From assembly GCF_000092845.1 (NCBI RefSeq), contig NC_014150.1, positions 1,512,919-1,576,918 of the forward strand: a stretch of 64,000 bases of DNA, read 5' to 3'. The translations under genes were made by a program, and so were the position numbers. Under the pieces are notes generated by a model. That model did no database searches, was not told where the DNA came from, and was given only the letters and a program-made list of their open reading frames with translations. Within the stretch, counting starts at the first letter, position 1, and the number at the start of each line of letters is the position of its first letter. Shown one piece after another: positions 5,571-13,684 of this stretch. Source of the stretch: Brachyspira murdochii DSM 12563 (GTDB lineage: Bacteria; Spirochaetota; Brachyspiria; Brachyspirales; Brachyspiraceae).

Positions 5571-7343
5571 ATGTATACCTATGAAGAATATATCAATAAA
5601 GTTATAAATAAAGAATTGCCAGTGTGTCAAGCTGCTTTTTTATCTGTAAAAAGGCATTTGGACGATATAGAAAAATCAAAAAATAATGATTATCCTTTTT
5701 ATTTTGATGATAATGAAGCTAAACGTCCTATCATGTTTATACAATCTTTAGTACATACAAAAGGAGAATGGGCAAATCATAATATTATACTAGAGCCTTG
5801 GGAACAGTTTATAATAGCAAGTATATTCGGATGGAGAAGAAAGGAAAATAAACTCAGACGTTACAAAAAAGCATACGTTCAAGTGAGCAGGAAAAATGGA
5901 AAAACTACTTTTGCATCTGGCATTGGTAATTATTGTTTTTTCTGCGACAGTCCTGCAGAGGCTGGAGTTGAAATATATTATATAGCTACTAAAAAAGATC
6001 AAGCGAAAATTGCATGGAGCGAAAGCGAAAGGCAAATAAGAAAAGCAAAAGCTCTTAATAAAGAAGCGATTACATATAAACAAACTTCTACAATTACAAA
6101 GAAAAAAGATACTGCATCAAAATCCAAACCGCTTGGACAGGACAGCAACACTGAAGACGGATTAAATCCTCATTTAGTGATAGTAGATGAGTACCATGCA
6201 CATCCTGATAATGAACTACTAAATGTTCTTGAATCTGGAATGGGAGCTAGAAGGCAGCCGCTTGTATTTATAATTACTACTGCTGGTTTTGATAAATCTT
6301 CAGTGTGTTTTTCTGAATATGAATATGCAAAGCAAATATTAAAAGGTTCATTAAATAATGATGAATACTTTACAATAATATATGAGCCTGACAACATCAA
6401 TGATATTTGGGTATTTATGTCCGAATATAAAGAAAAATTAAATAAAAATGAAGATGTTTCTAAGCAGGAAGAATTAATAAATAAAATTATTTTTCAAGCT
6501 AATCCTAATATAAATGTTTCTGTAAAAGACAGTTATCTCAAATCTAGGCTTTTAGAAGGGCTAGATAAACCTATTCAAAGAACTGATATACTTACAAAAA
6601 ACTTGAATGTTTGGACACAGGCTAGTGAAGTTTGGATATCTTCTGACAGATGGATTAAATCTTATTCACATCAAAATATAAATATAAATGAATTAAAAGG
6701 CAGGAAAGCCTGCATCGGTTTGGATTTAGCAACTACAAGAGATATAGCAGCTTATGTTTTATGTTTTGATTCTATTGATAATGGTCCGTATATACTTCTG
6801 CCTCGCTTCTTTATGCCTAAAGAAAATATAAGGCAGCGTTCTAAAGAAGACAGAGTGCCTTATGAATTATGGGCTTCGCAAGGTTTAATTACTTTAACAA
6901 GCGGTGATATAATAGATTTTGATGTTATAGAATCCTCAATACTAAATGATGCGAAAGATTTTGAAATTATAGAAATAGCTTATGACCCTTGGAAAGCTAT
7001 TGAAATAGTAACACACTTAGAAAGTGAGGGCTTCAAAATGGAACAGGTTAGGCAATCTTTTGCAGTCGGCGGTTTATCTGAAGGAACTTCTTTATTTGAA
7101 AAAACTATAGATGAACGAAAACTCCTTCATGGTAATAATGCAGTTCTTAATTGGATGATAAGCTGCTGTGAAGTAAAAACGGATGGGAGGGATAATTATT
7201 TGCCTGTAAAACCTGACAGAAGAAGATCATATAAAAGAATAGATGGTGTTGTAGCCTCCATTATGGCTCTTCATAGAGTGATTAAAAATCATTTTGAAGA
7301 TACTAAAAGTATTTATGAAACTGAAGGCGTTTTTACATTATAA
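5571..7343 (+). CDS. terL: Terminase large subunit
   Basis: A 590-residue packaging ATPase and nuclease. The ATPase domain has the Walker A motif SRKNGKTT (residues 106-113), the Walker B VIVDEYH near 203-209 and a coupling segment FIITTAGFD. The nuclease domain begins near residue 380 with CIGLDLATTRDIAAYV, whose first Asp is the expected metal ligand, and later carries IAYDPWKA. Length and motif order fit the Terminase_1 family and the gene looks intact. With terS it forms a two-gene plus-strand unit, opposite to portal and capsid. Confidence 0.93.
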   Translation: MYTYEEYINKVINKELPVCQAAFLSVKRHLDDIEKSKNNDYPFYFDDNEAKRPIMFIQSLVHTKGEWANHNIILEPWEQFIIASIFGWRRKENKLRRYKKAYVQVSRKNGKTTFASGIGNYCFFCDSPAEAGVEIYYIATKKDQAKIAWSESERQIRKAKALNKEAITYKQTSTITKKKDTASKSKPLGQDSNTEDGLNPHLVIVDEYHAHPDNELLNVLESGMGARRQPLVFIITTAGFDKSSVCFSEYEYAKQILKGSLNNDEYFTIIYEPDNINDIWVFMSEYKEKLNKNEDVSKQEELINKIIFQANPNINVSVKDSYLKSRLLEGLDKPIQRTDILTKNLNVWTQASEVWISSDRWIKSYSHQNININELKGRKACIGLDLATTRDIAAYVLCFDSIDNGPYILLPRFFMPKENIRQRSKEDRVPYELWASQGLITLTSGDIIDFDVIESSILNDAKDFEIIEIAYDPWKAIEIVTHLESEGFKMEQVRQSFAVGGLSEGTSLFEKTIDERKLLHGNNAVLNWMISCCEVKTDGRDNYLPVKPDRRRSYKRIDGVVASIMALHRVIKNHFEDTKSIYETEGVFTL

Positions 7344-7523
7344 TAATATCACTAATTTTATAAGTACCCCCTAATAAAAAAATTATCGCCATGCACAAAA
7401 GACTCCCCACTCGTTGCACCGATTGAAAGCCTGTAGAGATTTTCCCCACCCCCCGCCAAGCAAATATAAATCACTTATAATTTTGTTAAAGAAAAAAAGT
7501 TATTAATTTTAATTGAAAAATAG
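7344..7523. other. Non-coding region after terL with G+C-rich island
   Basis: No convincing gene. Bases 7363-7465 include several C-runs (TACCCCC, ACTCCCCAC, CCCCACCCCCCGCC), out of keeping with the A+T-rich surroundings. A packaging or cohesive-end site, or a decayed gene, could lie here; nothing in the sequence decides. Confidence 0.3.
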
Positions 7524-7551
7524 TTGACATTTTTTCAAGATATGCTATAAT
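7524..7551 (+). promoter_or_regulatory. Consensus sigma-70 promoter for membrane peptide 1
   Basis: TTGACA (7524-7529) and TATAAT (7546-7551) with a 16-base spacer; TATGC just before the -10 resembles an extended -10. Transcription would start near 7558, giving a leader of about 27 bases before the ATG at 7585. Confidence 0.85.
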
Positions 7552-7584
7552 ATAATTAATCCTAGATAAAAGGAGGAAATAATT

Positions 7585-7671
7585 ATGGAAGTCTTAACTT
7601 TCATAGCTACAATTATTGATATAATGACCCTTATCGTAATTGTGGTTAAGCTGATAAAGATTAAAAAATAA
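7585..7671 (+). CDS. Tiny hydrophobic peptide 1 (28 aa), type I toxin-like
   Basis: A 28-residue peptide: a short acidic start (MEVLTFIATIID), a hydrophobic stretch (IMTLIVIVVKLI) long enough to span a membrane, and a basic KIKK end. It has a consensus promoter and an excellent AGGAGG ribosome-binding site eight bases before the ATG, so it is almost certainly translated. This layout is that of type I toxin peptides (TxpA, Fst, Ldr styles) and of small phage membrane effectors. Downstream bases 7719-7734 are complementary to the start region 7578-7593, which could block translation through folding. Homology to any named toxin was not recognised. Confidence 0.7.
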   Translation: MEVLTFIATIIDIMTLIVIVVKLIKIKK

Positions 7672-7690
7672 TTTTTATTAGCTTACGAAA

Positions 7691-7734
7691 GGGAGCTGAG
7701 TTTGCCGACTTGGCTCCTGACTTCCATAGTTATT
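7691..7734 (+). promoter_or_regulatory. Hairpin plus anti-start sequence downstream of peptide 1
   Basis: A hairpin (7692-7701 with 7708-7717, two G-U pairs, six-base loop) is followed at once by GACTTCCATAGTTATT (7719-7734). The latter pairs with AATAATTATGGAAGTC (7578-7593), which spans the peptide 1 start codon and the bases just after its ribosome-binding site, over 16 bases with one wobble. Such 5'-3' pairing is typical of translationally inert type I toxin messages; the role here is inferred. Confidence 0.6.
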
Positions 7735-7763
7735 ATTATATATATAATATAGGAGTTGTCAAG

Positions 7764-7853
7764 ATGTTAACAACTATAAATGCAATATTATCTTTAGTAT
7801 CATTATCACTTAATATAGCAGTTTTAGTTCTTTTATTTAAAAGAGGTAATTAA
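7764..7853 (+). CDS. Tiny hydrophobic peptide 2 (29 aa)
   Basis: A 29-residue peptide with one hydrophobic segment (INAILSLVSLSLNIAVLVLL) and a basic FKRGN tail. An AGGAG ribosome-binding site lies upstream of the ATG at 7764. The start codon sits in the loop of a small hairpin formed by AGTTGT and ACAACT. Its stop overlaps the ATG of the ribbon-helix-helix gene (TAATG), so the two are translationally coupled. It may be a membrane toxin, a holin-like peptide or a membrane partner of the downstream system. It resembles peptide 1 in design but not closely in sequence. Confidence 0.65.
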   Translation: MLTTINAILSLVSLSLNIAVLVLLFKRGN

Positions 7854-8059
7854 TGGATAATAAAAAAAATACTCATGGTGGTGCTAGAATTGGAGCTGGC
7901 AGAAAAAAGAAAGATGATAAGGATAAAAAGCCTAGCTATAGAATATCTTTTAGATTAAATGAAGAAGAAAATAAAATGCTTGAAGAAGCCGCAAAAAAAG
8001 AAGGAATGAGCATAGGACAATATGCTAGAAAATGTGCTTTGGAGAAATTTAAAATATAA
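7853..8059 (+). CDS. Ribbon-helix-helix DNA-binding protein (68 aa)
   Basis: A 68-residue basic protein. It starts with GGARIGAGRKKK, a motif common in small phage and plasmid DNA-binding proteins. A MobC/CopG-like ribbon-helix-helix follows: a strand (YRISFRLN), helix (EEENKMLEEAAKKEG) and helix (SIGQYARKCALEKF). It probably binds palindromic DNA as a dimer; the hairpin at 8085-8110 just downstream is an obvious candidate site. It is coupled to peptide 2 and lies 63 bases before the GHKL-nuclease gene, so it may regulate the cargo operon. Antitoxin or autorepressor roles are both possible. Confidence 0.7.
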   Translation: MDNKKNTHGGARIGAGRKKKDDKDKKPSYRISFRLNEEENKMLEEAAKKEGMSIGQYARKCALEKFKI

Positions 8060-8084
8060 CAAATAAATAATTTATATATATTAG

Positions 8085-8108
8085 GTGTTGCGATAATAAA
8101 GGTTATCG
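8085..8108 (+). repeat. Left boundary inverted repeat of cargo block
   Basis: GTGTTGCGATAAT, four variable bases, then GTTATCG. The same 24-base pattern (20 of 24 identical) occurs in the opposite orientation at 12094-12117. The sequence also forms its own hairpin (GCGATAA / TTATCG) ending a few bases before the ribosome-binding site of the GHKL-nuclease gene. It could be an operator, a cassette end or a leader hairpin. Confidence 0.6.
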
Positions 8109-8122
8109 TATTGGAATTCATT

Positions 8123-10000
8123 ATGTATGTAAAAAAAGAAAGTAAATTAATAAAAGTAAATGGAAGATTAATAACAAATTCTTTAGTAGATAAAAGCAAT
8201 ACTTTTTTAGCTTTATGTGAACTTATAAATAATTCTATTCAAGCATCTGCAAATAATATAGAAATAAATATGACATCTGATTCTGAAGGTGAAATGATAA
8301 AAGATAGTATAACTTCTTTATCAATAAAAGACGATGGAGAAGGTGTATCTCTTAGTGATTTTCAAAAGAAAATATTAGAAATAGCTACAGACATAAAACC
8401 TAAAGGAAAAGGAACAGGAAGATTTTCAGTCTTTCAATTTGGTAAAACTGCTTATTTTGAAACAGTTTCTTATGATAAAATTTTAAATAATTATACAAAG
8501 ACATCATGTACATTAAATTTAAATGAACTTCAAAATGGATATATAGATAAAGAAGTAGAACTTGAAAGTTATATTTTTAATTCAAAAAAGGATACATATT
8601 TTTTTATAGAAGTAAGAGACATATTTACTAAAGATTATGAAAATTATAACAGTAGAAAACATAAAATTTGTGATGCATTAAAAACAGAAAATATAGGTTT
8701 ATCATTATTTACTATGTATCCTATAGAAATGTTAGATAAAAATATTCAATTTTTTGTAAATGGTATAAAAATTGATACTAAAAACTATCAGTTGGATAGA
8801 AACAAATTTGAAAGACAATATAACGATTATTCAATAGAATATGATGTTATAGAACATAAGTCTAAAAAAAAGAAAGAAGAAAAAGTACTTTGTATAAGAA
8901 CTGAAAATAACAATATAAAAAATATATTAAATTATTTTGATATAGAAATGGATATACCTTATAAAGAAAAATCGGAAGTTAGTTGGCATATATATGTGGA
9001 TTCTGAATACATAGATAAAAATGTAGAATCATTTGAAAATATAGATTTAAAGGATATGAATATTGATGTAAAAAATTTTTTAAATCAAATAGAAACAGAT
9101 ATCAAAAATTTTTTCTTAAATAATTATGAAGAATATTTTAATTTTAGAGATAAACTAATAAAAAATGATAACTATCCATATAAAAACAATATTAGTTCAT
9201 CTAAAAGTAAAGAAATAGCATTTATACAAATAGCGTATTCTATAGAAGATAAATATAAATTATTGTCATCTAATAATAAAGATTTGATGAAAATTATTTA
9301 TCCATTATTAGATGGTTGTTTAGATAATCCAAATTTAAAAAAAATAATTAATAGTATTAATACGCTAAAAAAAGAACACATCAAACAATTTGAAGAATTA
9401 ATAGATAAAACAGAATTAGATGAAGTTATAACTTTTTCTGATAATGTTGCTAATAAAATGGCATTTTTAGATTTTTTACATGAAATTAATTATAGTGATG
9501 ATATATCTAAATATATATTAGAACGTAAACAGTTACATAAAGTACTAGAGAAAAATTTATGGATATTTGGAGAACAATATATTTATAGTAGTGCTATAAT
9601 AGAAAGTGATACTAATTTAGGAAAAAATTTAGAACGATTACGAGCAAATATTATGAAAAATAATTGTGAAGAGTTTGATGAAATAAAATCAGATGATAAT
9701 ATAACAAAAATAACAGATTTATTCTTTTATTCAGACTTTAAATTTAATAAAAAACATGAGGTATTAGTTGTAGAATTAAAGAGACCTAGTGTTAAATTGG
9801 GTAATAAAGAAATTGAACAAGTAAAAAGATATGGATCTGAGATATCAAAATCCAGTAGTATAAGTAAACAAAATGTAAATTTTAAAATCATATTAATAGG
9901 TTCAAGTATTAATGAAGATGATGCAATATATATAAGCAATAATGAACCATTATATAAAACAGGAAATATTGAAATATGGGTAATGAACTGGGCTGATTAA
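8123..10000 (+). CDS. GHKL ATPase fused to Shedu/DUF4263-like nuclease
   Basis: A 625-residue protein. The N-terminal GHKL (Hsp90/MutL-type) ATPase shows the N-box CELINNSIQA (32-41), the G1 motif KDDGEG (69-74) and the G2 loop GKGTGRFSVF (95-104). A long helical middle follows. The C-terminus has LEKNLWIFGEQY, typical of the start of DUF4263, and a PD-(D/E)xK core: D532 in ITDLFFYSDF, E551 and K553 in VVELKRP, then a QVKRYG helix. Shedu nucleases with varied sensor domains defend bacteria against phage; a GHKL sensor fits that theme. ATG 8123 has GGAA six bases upstream. Codon use is extremely A+T-rich, suggesting recent transfer. Confidence 0.75.
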   Translation: MYVKKESKLIKVNGRLITNSLVDKSNTFLALCELINNSIQASANNIEINMTSDSEGEMIKDSITSLSIKDDGEGVSLSDFQKKILEIATDIKPKGKGTGRFSVFQFGKTAYFETVSYDKILNNYTKTSCTLNLNELQNGYIDKEVELESYIFNSKKDTYFFIEVRDIFTKDYENYNSRKHKICDALKTENIGLSLFTMYPIEMLDKNIQFFVNGIKIDTKNYQLDRNKFERQYNDYSIEYDVIEHKSKKKKEEKVLCIRTENNNIKNILNYFDIEMDIPYKEKSEVSWHIYVDSEYIDKNVESFENIDLKDMNIDVKNFLNQIETDIKNFFLNNYEEYFNFRDKLIKNDNYPYKNNISSSKSKEIAFIQIAYSIEDKYKLLSSNNKDLMKIIYPLLDGCLDNPNLKKIINSINTLKKEHIKQFEELIDKTELDEVITFSDNVANKMAFLDFLHEINYSDDISKYILERKQLHKVLEKNLWIFGEQYIYSSAIIESDTNLGKNLERLRANIMKNNCEEFDEIKSDDNITKITDLFFYSDFKFNKKHEVLVVELKRPSVKLGNKEIEQVKRYGSEISKSSSISKQNVNFKIILIGSSINEDDAIYISNNEPLYKTGNIEIWVMNWAD

Positions 10001-10189
10001 TAAAAAGAAAATAGAGATAAATTAACTTATATGAGTAATGAAATAAAAGTTAAAGATAATTATATATTAAATAATATTGAAAAAAAAATATCCCTGAAAT
10101 AAACTTCAATAATATTAAATTGAAGTTAAATGTGAAAAAATAATTATTAATTATATATTAATATAAAATAAATATTTTGGGAATACATT

Positions 10190-11911
10190 ATGGAATATGA
10201 AAAACTTATTACAAAATTAGCATATGATTATAACATATTTAATAAAGATTCTAGTATAGAAAATATTTTAGAGCTTTTTAAAGATACAAATGAAATTAGT
10301 ATTAAAGAATTAAATTTATTAATATTCATTATTATCAATGAAAAAAGTTACTCTAATTTTTGTAAAGAATTAAAAAATATAACTAACATATATTCAGATG
10401 AACAATTAAGTAGTCTATTTTTAAGTTTTATAGCAATTGCTAATTCTGATAGCATAGATATCACTATGCAGTATAGAAATAAATTAGAAAATGAAAAAGA
10501 ATTAAATATGGTATCTATGACAAATAGTAATATAAAATTAGAAAATAATTATTTTTCATGTAATGATATTATTGACACTACTGTAGATCTTTTAGACTTT
10601 AATTTTAAATTATTTAAGTATATAACTAACAATAAGGAAATAATATCATCTACTATCAATTATATGAATATTGATCTAGTAAGAGAAAATAATAAATTTT
10701 TAATTTTAAAAACTATTTATGAATATATATGTTTTGAAAATGCATTTTTATCTGAAGTTAGTATTTATAAATATAAAATAGAATATAAAGATAAGTTTCA
10801 TATATTAAAATATATTAATTTATTGAAGGTTAATGAAAAATTAATATCTTCTCTAATGAATACTCATAACTTGAAAATATATTATTTTGATAACATATAC
10901 ATAGAAAATTTAAAAATAAACGAAATGACTGGTGAAATATTTTTTGATATAGAAAAAAAGTCGGTAAAAAATATGTATATAGAAGGTAGAATGAAATTAT
11001 ATATAAATAGTTTAGTAATATACCATTATTACTATGATAAAAATTATAATGATATGGCACTAAATTTTTTCAGAGTGTTTATTGCATTAGATTATATACT
11101 ATACAATGTATCAAATTATATAACTGATACAAAGCATAATATCAATTTTTATTTATTTAAAATAAATAAAAAATTACTATCTGAATATTGTACAAAAATA
11201 ACTAATTTAGATAGTAATATTTGTGATGATATAATAGAATATTTAACTTATGATAATAAATCTAGTTTTTGGAATAAACCTTTAATAAAAAATGGTGATT
11301 TTTATCATTTATTAATTACACCTATAAAATATGGCAATATTATATTTATTGTAGATGAATATATGAATAATAAAACAACTTGTTTTAAAGATAAAAAAGG
11401 AAATCTATTTGAAAAATTTGTCGTAGATGAAATTACACTTCTATTATCTGAAAAAAAATTTTTTTATAAAATAGATCATGGTAAATATAAAATTTCTAAA
11501 AAAGAGATGGAGGAAATAGATTTTATATTAGAAACAAAAAATACAATTATAGTAGCTGAAATTAAATGTATTAGATATCCATTTAATTCACAGTTAATAC
11601 AAAGATATGAAACTATTATTAATAAAGCGGTTGATCAAATAATAAGAAAAACTACATTTTTAATAAAAAATAATAAAAAATTTCAAAATAAAAAAATTTC
11701 ATTTCAAAATAAAAAAATTATTAAATGTGTTATAACAAATTATAGTTTATTTTCTGGAACAGAAAGATCTGGAGTTTATATTATAGATATAAATATGCTT
11801 CGTAAATATATTAATGTTGGTAAAGAAGGATTTATCAAGTATGACTTAAGTACTAGAGAAAAACATGAAATAGCTAAAAACTTATATAATACTGAAGATG
11901 GAATTTTCTAA
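10190..11911 (+). CDS. Unknown protein with C-terminal PD-(D/E)xK nuclease domain
   Basis: A 573-residue protein whose first 390 residues match no family I recognise; they look mostly helical, Asn/Ile/Tyr-rich and soluble. The C-terminal 170 residues carry a restriction-type core: GNLFEKFVVDE (E408), EEIDFILE (D444) and IIVAEIKC (E457, K459), followed by a helix with YETIINKAVDQI. It lies 190 bases after the GHKL-nuclease gene in the same direction and has the same extreme A+T composition, so the two probably form one functional unit. The ribosome-binding site is weak (TGGGAA). A second effector nuclease or a target-recognition partner is plausible. Confidence 0.65.
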   Translation: MEYEKLITKLAYDYNIFNKDSSIENILELFKDTNEISIKELNLLIFIIINEKSYSNFCKELKNITNIYSDEQLSSLFLSFIAIANSDSIDITMQYRNKLENEKELNMVSMTNSNIKLENNYFSCNDIIDTTVDLLDFNFKLFKYITNNKEIISSTINYMNIDLVRENNKFLILKTIYEYICFENAFLSEVSIYKYKIEYKDKFHILKYINLLKVNEKLISSLMNTHNLKIYYFDNIYIENLKINEMTGEIFFDIEKKSVKNMYIEGRMKLYINSLVIYHYYYDKNYNDMALNFFRVFIALDYILYNVSNYITDTKHNINFYLFKINKKLLSEYCTKITNLDSNICDDIIEYLTYDNKSSFWNKPLIKNGDFYHLLITPIKYGNIIFIVDEYMNNKTTCFKDKKGNLFEKFVVDEITLLLSEKKFFYKIDHGKYKISKKEMEEIDFILETKNTIIVAEIKCIRYPFNSQLIQRYETIINKAVDQIIRKTTFLIKNNKKFQNKKISFQNKKIIKCVITNYSLFSGTERSGVYIIDINMLRKYINVGKEGFIKYDLSTREKHEIAKNLYNTEDGIF

Positions 11912-11930
11912 TAACTTTGAAATATATTTT

Positions 11931-12050
11931 ATGAGCTCAAATTCTTTTTATGAAGATAGAATTAAAATAATAACTAAGAAATTAAAAATAGGAAATTTTG
12001 AAATATCTATACCTACAATAATAGAGAATAAATTGTTTCATTACGAATAA
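11931..12050 (+). CDS. Possible small protein (39 aa)
   Basis: An ATG-initiated 39-codon frame beginning MSSNSFYEDRIKIITKK and ending FHYE. It lies 19 bases after the unknown nuclease gene with no good ribosome-binding site. It could be a short third gene of the cargo block, a gene remnant or chance. Confidence 0.25.
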   Translation: MSSNSFYEDRIKIITKKLKIGNFEISIPTIIENKLFHYE

Positions 12051-12089
12051 TAATACCTCTGCGTAAGCTTTGTGTAGTATTATTATATA

Positions 12090-12117
12090 GTTGCGATAAC
12101 ATAAATTATCGCAACAC
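12090..12117 (-). repeat. Right boundary palindrome / inverted repeat of cargo block
   Basis: A perfect inverted repeat GTTGCGATAA / TTATCGCAAC (12090-12099 and 12106-12115, six-base spacer). Read on the minus strand, 12117-12094 repeats the pattern at 8085-8108. It starts five bases past the stop of the small ribbon-helix-helix gene that ends at 12123. Function may be operator, 3' hairpin or recombination core. Confidence 0.65.
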
Positions 12118-12122
12118 TGTAT

Positions 12123-12251
12123 CTAATTGATATAATCTAAAATAAGTTTTTTAATATACTTACGTACGCTCATATTATTTTCTTTAGCTAATCTTTTTAA
12201 TAGCTTATATTCTTTATAATTAAATCTGCAAACTACTAATCTTTTTTTCAT
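12123..12251 (-). CDS. Small ribbon-helix-helix protein (42 aa) coupled to integrase
   Basis: A 42-residue basic protein (MKKRLVVCRFNYKEYKLLK...) with the strand-helix-helix plan of minimal CopG/Arc proteins: VVCRFN strand, KEYKLLKRLAKENN helix and SVRKYIKKLILDYI helix. A GGAGG ribosome-binding site lies inside the integrase 3' end, and its ATG overlaps the integrase stop (TAATG). It could be an excisionase-like directionality factor or an integrase regulator, binding the palindrome at 12090-12115 just beyond its stop. Confidence 0.7.
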   Translation of the reverse strand: MKKRLVVCRFNYKEYKLLKRLAKENNMSVRKYIKKLILDYIN

Positions 12252-13198
12252 TATTCTACCTCCAAACTTTTTAAGTATATTCCTGTTATAGCTATACTGC
12301 TATGATTTAATGCCTGTCTAATGAGTTCTATATCTTTGGTTTGTTTGTATAAAGTAACAGCAAAATAATGCCTTATATCATGTATAGAATATGCAGCTTT
12401 TATTTTACCTTGCTGATATAAACGCTTTGAACTTCTATAAAAAATGTTTCTTATCACTTCAGAACTTTTATTTTTGAAAGGATTATTAAAAGAAAGATTA
12501 TTCTGTTTCGCTCTGCGGGCTTTAGCCAATAATTTAATAACTTTATCTGTAACTTTCCAGCTTATTTCCTTGCCTTTTGAATATGAATAATATTTGTTAT
12601 TTCTTATTTCTAGTTTAGGTAAAGCACCAACACGTACTCCGCATTCCATTATAAAAATGATGGCCACTTTTATAAGAGGATCTGCTATATCTTTAATTAT
12701 TAATTCAATTTCTTTTTTAGTTGGGACTTCAAGTCTTTTTTTGTTCTTCACAGGCGGACGAGTTTTTGTACCTCGAAAAGGATTTTTCATAAACGGATAT
12801 CTTCTCTCTAAAAAAGAAAAGAAAGAGGAACATGAAGAAACTAATGCACGTATACTTAAATTAGAAAGTTCACTTGAATTGACTTCCGTTATAAAATCAT
12901 CAGCTTCTCTTGCTTTAATAAATAAAATATTTTTCTTATTCATTTTGCAGTATTCCTCTAGTTTATTAAGTCCGTTTCTATATTGTCTTTTTGTGTGATT
13001 GCTTTTTGTTTTTGAACATTGCTTAAAAAAGTTTTCTTTTTCTATTTCATAATCTATCTGTTTAATAAGCTGCTCTTCTTTCATATAGTCAAGTATATTT
13101 AAGTAGTTAGCTTGCTTAATGAGAAGTTCCGCTTGTTTTTCTGTTATTATATTATTATTGTTTTGTACTATTAATTTATTATTGCTTTTAGAAGCCAT
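12251..13198 (-). CDS. int: Tyrosine recombinase / phage integrase
   Basis: A 315-residue site-specific recombinase. An N-terminal SAM-like core-binding domain spans roughly residues 55-150 (HTKRQYRNGLNKLEEYCK...). The catalytic domain holds R189 (ECGVRVGALP), H273 and R276 (SIHDIRHYF), H299 (ALNHSSIAIT) and the nucleophile Y308 (GIYLKS). It is intact and would integrate or excise the prophage. It lies in the middle of the visible prophage rather than next to a recognisable att site. Its 3' end is coupled to a small ribbon-helix-helix gene. Confidence 0.92.
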   Translation of the reverse strand: MASKSNNKLIVQNNNNIITEKQAELLIKQANYLNILDYMKEEQLIKQIDYEIEKENFFKQCSKTKSNHTKRQYRNGLNKLEEYCKMNKKNILFIKAREADDFITEVNSSELSNLSIRALVSSCSSFFSFLERRYPFMKNPFRGTKTRPPVKNKKRLEVPTKKEIELIIKDIADPLIKVAIIFIMECGVRVGALPKLEIRNNKYYSYSKGKEISWKVTDKVIKLLAKARRAKQNNLSFNNPFKNKSSEVIRNIFYRSSKRLYQQGKIKAAYSIHDIRHYFAVTLYKQTKDIELIRQALNHSSIAITGIYLKSLEVE

Positions 13199-13276
13199 GT
13201 TTATACCTTTTTATTAAATTAAAGACAAAAGCCTTCATTTAATAAAAAGAATATAAACTTTTATAACTATGTATTA

Positions 13277-13684
13277 TTAAAACGGTACCTCCTCACCGAG
13301 TAGGTGCCTATCGGCATCATCTTCCTGACTATTATTTTCTACTGCATTATTCACATCTTTTTTATCAGCAAGCATCTGCATTGACTGCATAATTATTCTC
13401 ACTTTAGATTTAGTAGTGTTTGTATTTTTATCCTGCCATCTTTCCTGCCTTAGTGTTCCGCATATTAAAACTTGCTTTCCTTTTATAAGATATTTACTTA
13501 CTGTTTCTGCTAATTTTCCAAAAGCTACTATATCAAAATAATTTACTTCTGTAGTATTTTTTGTAATTACATAATAATTGTTTGCTATAGAAAACTCAGC
13601 AATTTCCATTCCTCCTTGTGTATATTTTCGCTGCGGGTCAGCAGTTAGCCTTCCTATTAATGTTACAATGTTATGATCGCTCAT
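13277..13684 (-). CDS. ssb: Phage single-stranded DNA-binding protein
   Basis: A 135-residue SSB. The OB fold runs from NIVTLIGRLTADPQRKYTQGG through INYYVITK-like strands to KGKQVLICGTLRQERWQDK and VRIIMQSMQML. The C-terminus ends GEEVPF, the acidic tip that recruits replication partners. Just before this tip a palindromic element (13294-13315) is inserted in frame, encoding ADRHLLG in the flexible linker, where length changes are tolerated. It belongs to the minus-strand early operon, 26 bases after the repaired end of the MmcB-like gene. Confidence 0.92.
   Translation of the reverse strand: MSDHNIVTLIGRLTADPQRKYTQGGMEIAEFSIANNYYVITKNTTEVNYFDIVAFGKLAETVSKYLIKGKQVLICGTLRQERWQDKNTNTTKSKVRIIMQSMQMLADKKDVNNAVENNSQEDDADRHLLGEEVPF
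13294..13316 (+). repeat. Short palindromic element P4 inside ssb
   Basis: Exact reverse complement of the element at 3209-3231 in the protease gene, here in the linker of ssb before its acidic tip. Half-sites are CCGAGTAGG and CCTATCGG. The two copies are read by their host genes in opposite orientation. Confidence 0.85.

Follow-up and report, generated by a model that had tools for sequence, protein, structure and literature searches.

What a single protein that joins a GHKL ATPase to a PD-(D/E)XK nuclease does in a spirochaete prophage, and from which family its nuclease descends, are two questions raised by one gene of Brachyspira murdochii DSM 12563. The gene is located in the window, which is the whole stretch of 64,000 nucleotides that was analyzed. 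Judging from its sequence, from fold models, and from its likeness to a protein tested by others, the gene product is most likely a single-protein, ATP-gated nuclease that acts against phages and belongs to the cargo of a Brachyspira prophage. For the descent of the nuclease, the predicted structure leans towards Shedu and the sequence leans towards HSDR_N, and neither is decisive. The features of the locus are collected in Table 1.

Table 1. Features of the ATPase-nuclease locus, with positions counted from the first nucleotide of the window.
Feature	Position	Strand	Remarks
Large subunit of the phage terminase, bordering the cargo slot on the left	5571..7343	+	
GHKL ATPase–PD-(D/E)XK nuclease gene (paraMORC3-like / GHKL-Shedu-like)	8123..10000	+	this copy encodes 625 aa from ATG
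MORC-like ATPase module (GHKL domain, S5-type transducer, and helices), residues 11-347	8153..9163	+	Pfam and fold matches
Helical lead-in and PD-(D/E)XK nuclease, residues 438-625	9434..9997	+	E467, D532, E551-x-K553, Q566; fold modeled for the domain of the homologue L107
Altered 3' end, with small indels within or beside homopolymer runs	9998..10092	+	frame open to 672 aa in the two sister copies
Second cargo gene, a 573-aa ORF in which a NERD (nuclease-related) domain is weakly matched	10190..11911	+	Pfam
Phage integrase, bordering the cargo slot on the right	12251..13198	-	

An alternative start of the open reading frame is possible at a TTG (8111). In Pfam, HATPase_c_3 matched residues 29-123 above the cut-off (E 2.7e-13), and the sole match at the C-terminus was a sub-threshold one to HSDR_N_2 (residues 527-575, E 0.0066). 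Residues 10-624 are spanned by phrog_6203 of PHROGs (E 5.4e-22), which carries no assigned function. A PADLOC search of the window protein gave no match.

Conservation was followed in an alignment of 98 sequences, consisting of the window protein and 97 near-full-length proteins from 121 loci (L027-L147), with split, partial, and some near-duplicate members left out. E33, N37, D70, G72, K92, G97, G99, R100, and W480 were found in all 98 sequences, and G74 in 97. The nuclease-side residues E467, D532, E551, K553, Q566, and Y570 were likewise found in 97. The sequence-only reading had placed a GHKL ATPase at the N-terminus, which is borne out by the HATPase_c_3 match and by the invariant E33, N37, D70, G72, G97, and G99. 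Its fusion to a PD-(D/E)XK nuclease also stands, since the conserved catalytic residues and the predicted folds agree. That reading had named six conserved positions, too broadly in one respect: E33, D70, D532, E551, and K553 are kept, but position 71 is D in just 50 of the 98 sequences and N in 38. Position 95 is G in 44. Among three Brachyspira homologues, dN/dS is ~0.3-0.45 (dN 0.18-0.24, dS 0.53-0.59), which indicates that the gene is under purifying selection. The one aligned sequence without the nuclease residues belongs to Prevotella histicola (L076, 5986-8019). All of its nuclease residues are missing and its ATPase motifs are intact. The ATPase part may therefore act independently or serve another effector.

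The AlphaFold2 model of the window protein is a confident one, with a mean pLDDT of 87.2 and a pTM of 0.68. The best fold matches of residues 11-347 are the ATPase modules of MORC3, MORC4, and MORC2 (Z 14.6-16.9), with Hsp90-type proteins next, and Foldseek matched the model to MORC3 at E 1.7e-10. The domain that follows the GHKL domain appears to be of the S5 type, as the predicted fold of the window protein resembles the MORC ATPase modules across residues 11-338 and beyond. When a profile of the full family was compared with PDB sequences, MutL, topoisomerase VI, MORC, and Hsp90 were matched at the N-terminus; phmmer with the single protein and hmmsearch with the nuclease profile gave no match among the PDB sequences. 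The window protein shares the MORC fold but is missing the MORC-specific motif, GhXhhpXXRhl, which was found in none of the 98 sequences and is likewise missing from paraMORC3. MORC2, MORC3, and MORC4 are not known to possess a nuclease.

An ATP-gated dimer as the sensor of such a nuclease had been put forward earlier as a notable architecture. The fusion has already been published, however, as paraMORC3 (Iyer, Abhiman and Aravind, 2008; PMC2292703) and as VcSduA, for which a dimer model and mutants were also reported (PMC12137116). ParaMORC3 was described as a GHKL and an S5 domain with a C-terminal restriction-fold nuclease and an E-D-ExK signature, often encoded by a standalone gene, and it was called prevalent in proteobacteria and bacteroidetes (PMC2292703). 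The window protein also has GHKL and S5 domains and a C-terminal nuclease with E-D-ExK, and it fits paraMORC3 by architecture and motifs, being set beside the published family by description. It differs in belonging to a spirochaete prophage.

VcSduA was reported in 2025 as a GHKL-Shedu protein (type I-D) from the island VSP-II of WASA Vibrio cholerae; the type I-D class is credited there to Gu et al. (2025) (PMC12137116). The protein protects Escherichia coli against Drexlerviridae and, according to the abstract, also protects against vibriophage X29. Its defense is abolished by E27A or K557A, and it is predicted to form a dimer with a clamp-like middle (PMC12137116). As in VcSduA, the window protein has a GHKL N-terminus and a PD-(D/E)XK C-terminus in one chain, and the catalytic E and K are similarly placed in the two proteins. 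The E-to-K spacing is 530 in VcSduA (E27-K557) versus 520 in the window protein, and the 98 sequences span 499-525. The two also differ in location, an island in one case and a prophage in the other. VcSduA was set beside the window protein by description and not by sequence, so we infer their homology from architecture. Listings of the literature on Shedu, DUF4263, and GHKL anti-phage nucleases gave no report of this architecture beyond paraMORC3 and VcSduA, and it was not mentioned in the titles and opening lines of abstracts on Brachyspira prophages and defense. Since the architecture is published and one such protein has been shown to be anti-phage, the window protein extends a known kind of system by a good new example and does not define another. 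With it, an architecture of which one protein has been tested gains a member from a spirochaete prophage, and near-identical copies of this member occur naturally.

The fold of the nuclease domain was modeled from the homologue L107, which has a complete C-terminus and is 70% identical as a protein and 73% identical to the window protein's domain (pLDDT 87.6, pTM 0.81). Its top match is the E. coli Shedu structure 8ps4 (Z 10.1, 161 residues, rmsd 3.9). Among chains pre-ranked by Foldseek, the first three places by Z were taken by Shedu (8ps4, 8ps5, and 8ti9 of Bacillus cereus; Z 9.6-10.1), with the BspD6I nickase tied at Z 9.4. By Foldseek alone, nothing was found at E 0.001; EndoMS came first and Shedu eighth (best Shedu E 0.012).

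There is about an even chance that the window protein is a Shedu of type I-D in the strict sense, that is, that its nuclease comes from the DUF4263 nuclease and that only the sensor was exchanged for a GHKL ATPase. The lead of the Shedu structures in the fold comparison is consistent with such an origin. Counterparts of the E - D - (D/E)xK - Q order and of the C-terminal strand-helix ending are present, and VcSduA has been so classified (PMC12137116). BspD6I, however, is less than one Z away. SduA from E. coli and from B. cereus, which the nuclease domain resembles most closely in structure, has other N-terminal parts. The E. coli protein is described as a tetramer with an N-terminal clamp that binds and senses DNA ends (PMC12904381).

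The profile searches point away from strict Shedu descent. PF14082 (SduA_C/DUF4263) matched neither the window protein nor any other part of its 3.24 Mb genome. It is also absent from the 25 families, out of 37, that were listed for a profile-scan set of 66 family members, which means that at most one of the 66 matches it, at E 0.024 or worse. The model itself works, as it matched in seven of 296 genomes of the phylum, and in a positive control it scored the true Shedu proteins L148 and L151 above the cut-off. An alignment of six true Shedu proteins retrieved the solved Shedu 8ti9. The PADLOC SduA model matched just three of the 66 members (best E 0.0034). The earlier proposal of a DUF4263-type nuclease fits the structural ranking, where Shedu is tied with BspD6I, and is not borne out by the PF14082 search. 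Membership in Shedu by sequence was rejected on the PF14082 result for protein and genome and on the place of HSDR_N_2 ahead of Shedu in the profile-profile comparison.

A possible but less probable alternative is that a nuclease of the HSDR_N or type II-like PD-(D/E)XK kind was recruited apart from Shedu, came under the control of the GHKL ATPase, and converged on the Shedu fold; the protein would then be better filed under paraMORC3. HSDR_N_2 is the nearest profile, found in 50 of the 66 members (best E 2.8e-6). It also came first in hhalign (P 2e-5, against 0.0019 for Shedu, 0.046 for Mrr, and 0.14 for the neighboring NERD domain as a single sequence), in comparisons made one pair at a time, outside a database search, with only six sequences on the Shedu side; the nuclease-domain set consisted of 72 sequences, thinned at 75% identity. 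PADLOC REase_II models matched up to 30 of the 66 members, and in one member viewed closely it was the ATPase part that was matched. The HSDR match, however, is confined to a short D-ExK-Q core of 50-63 columns, whereas the fold comparison, with Shedu in first place, extends over most of the nuclease domain. A wider proposal, which we regard as rather unlikely, is that the GHKL-nucleases filed as Shedu type I-D form a class of their own, namely single-protein restriction enzymes gated by an ATP clamp. Their nuclease would be nearer to HSDR_N and type II enzymes, would have converged on a Shedu-like fold, and would have been spread by prophages, satellites, and plasmids. The comparison casts a testable doubt on the common descent of GHKL-Shedu proteins and Shedu.

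The genes around the window gene encode portal, capsid, and head protease proteins, the small and large terminase subunits, an integrase, and an SSB. The GHKL-nuclease gene is cargo of this Brachyspira prophage, located between terminase and integrase. There are three copies of the gene in the genome, each inside a prophage stretch, and these stretches align to the window at 98.8-99.9% over 24-27 kb. Within 7020-13280, the only differences in the two other copies are small indels, near 9999-10092 and near 11900, although the aligner renders some copy-to-copy indels as neighboring mismatches. The window copy stops at 9998-10000, and its last 47 residues are absent (625 vs. 672 aa). The indels of the GHKL gene fall within or beside homopolymer runs, so an assembly error at its 3' end is possible; otherwise, the window copy may be defective. 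Just upstream of the window, at positions -1338 to -829 (L021), there are two 240-bp stretches, each ~96% identical to the other's counterpart in the sister prophages, which form a near-identical, tandem-like repeat.

The region between terminase and integrase was also explored in 13 further Brachyspira stretches downstream of a terminase. Eleven of these have both flanks (in L164 the integrase is in the opposite orientation, and in L165 the terminase is cut short); L162 and L167 are without an integrase and were not counted. None of the 11 contains the GHKL gene. Annotation covered chosen ORFs, and 17 of the 20 chosen slot proteins matched Pfam at E 0.001. By Pfam, defense-type or near-defense genes are present in the slot of nine of the 11 loci. 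These are DUF5131 and DUF3800, an N6/N4 methyltransferase with Mrr_cat, ABC-3C pairs, C5 methyltransferases, an EcoRI-type methylase, a subtilase with AAA, GmrSD_N with HEPN, and a RAMP gene. The slots of L156 and L159 contain small ORFs only. GHKL homologues fill the slot in G016, in G007, and in the IMG/VR loci L107-L109 (L107 with the integrase side only). The terminase–integrase slot of Brachyspira prophages is marked as one that collects defense-type genes.

Several of these loci show further features. In L108 and L109, two genes come after the GHKL relative. In L108 (7390-9267), the first of them is an ORF whose N-terminus is hydrophobic, and the second, tested in this locus, is Abi_alpha (PF14337, E 1.2e-28). 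Similar genes are present in L109 and G007; perhaps these form a multi-gene defense set. The RAMP-superfamily gene (PF03787, E 5e-8) is in L165 (4158-5039, + strand), among several short unassigned ORFs, and could be part of a stripped CRISPR-like cassette.

Directly downstream of the GHKL gene is the NERD gene, and the two could be read as a two-gene system. They are on the same strand, 189 bases apart, and occur together in the three prophage copies. The NERD gene is shortened in the window copy by the indel near 11900 (open frame 579 vs. 625), and it has a weak match to PADLOC PDC-S01 (E 1e-4). However, it was found in the window genome alone among 26 of the genus, it has no relative in the plasmid collection, and the GHKL relatives of G016, G007, and L107 occupy the same slot without it. 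It was thus rejected as an obligate partner, and a two-gene system is improbable.

Relatives of the GHKL-nuclease were also searched for elsewhere. Four of 61 genomes searched gave a match, all in the genus of the window and including the window genome. A search of genome contigs found 243 relatives among 466 candidate stretches. Among the best 80 of the 243, which were kept, the nearest relatives in named records are loci of Brachyspira alvinipulli and B. catarrhinii. Among viral contigs, an alignment-based scan found 41 loci, and a scan with the single sequence came up empty. A viral scan with one Shedu protein likewise gave nothing. In E. coli, relatives were found in 11 of 5426 genomes. 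The one E. coli region that was inspected is a P4-like satellite, in which the gene has the phage polarity suppression gene on one side and, on the other, an integrase beside ssrA. Eight annotated plasmid and phage regions were inspected. The Psychrobacter relative is beside Drt2 and a methyltransferase/LlaMI endonuclease (R-M) pair, the Phaeobacter relative adjoins a type ISP R-M gene, and in Deinococcus a DNA methyltransferase gene is <2 kb away. In two Pasteurella phages, the relative sits among tail genes. No R-M gene is among the listed features of the Sinorhizobium, Salmonella, and Streptomyces regions.

The anti-phage reading draws on the conserved residues, the MORC and Shedu fold matches, the variable defense-type slot, the relatives near defense genes, and the VcSduA mutants. 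The VcSduA spacing just outside the family range, the lost 47 residues, the tie of Shedu with BspD6I, and the PADLOC result for the window protein weigh against it. The present analysis established the order of the domains, the invariance of the catalytic residues, the folds as predicted, the place among the prophage cargo, and purifying selection. That ATPase and nuclease residues are both needed for defense was demonstrated by others for VcSduA. As an ATP-gated nuclease, the protein could bind ATP with its N-terminal GHKL/S5 module and close as a dimer, as MORC and MutL do. The helical middle and the closed ATPase would then form a clamp on invading DNA or on a protein bound to it. Nucleotide-driven closure or hydrolysis may finally license the C-terminal PD-(D/E)XK domain to cut the engaged DNA.

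A phage gene for DNA replication, repair, or packaging is an improbable reading: the gene adjoins the terminase and MutL-like ATPases work in repair, but it is missing from most related prophages, where unrelated defense-type genes occupy the slot instead, and it is also found on plasmids, satellites, and chromosomes.
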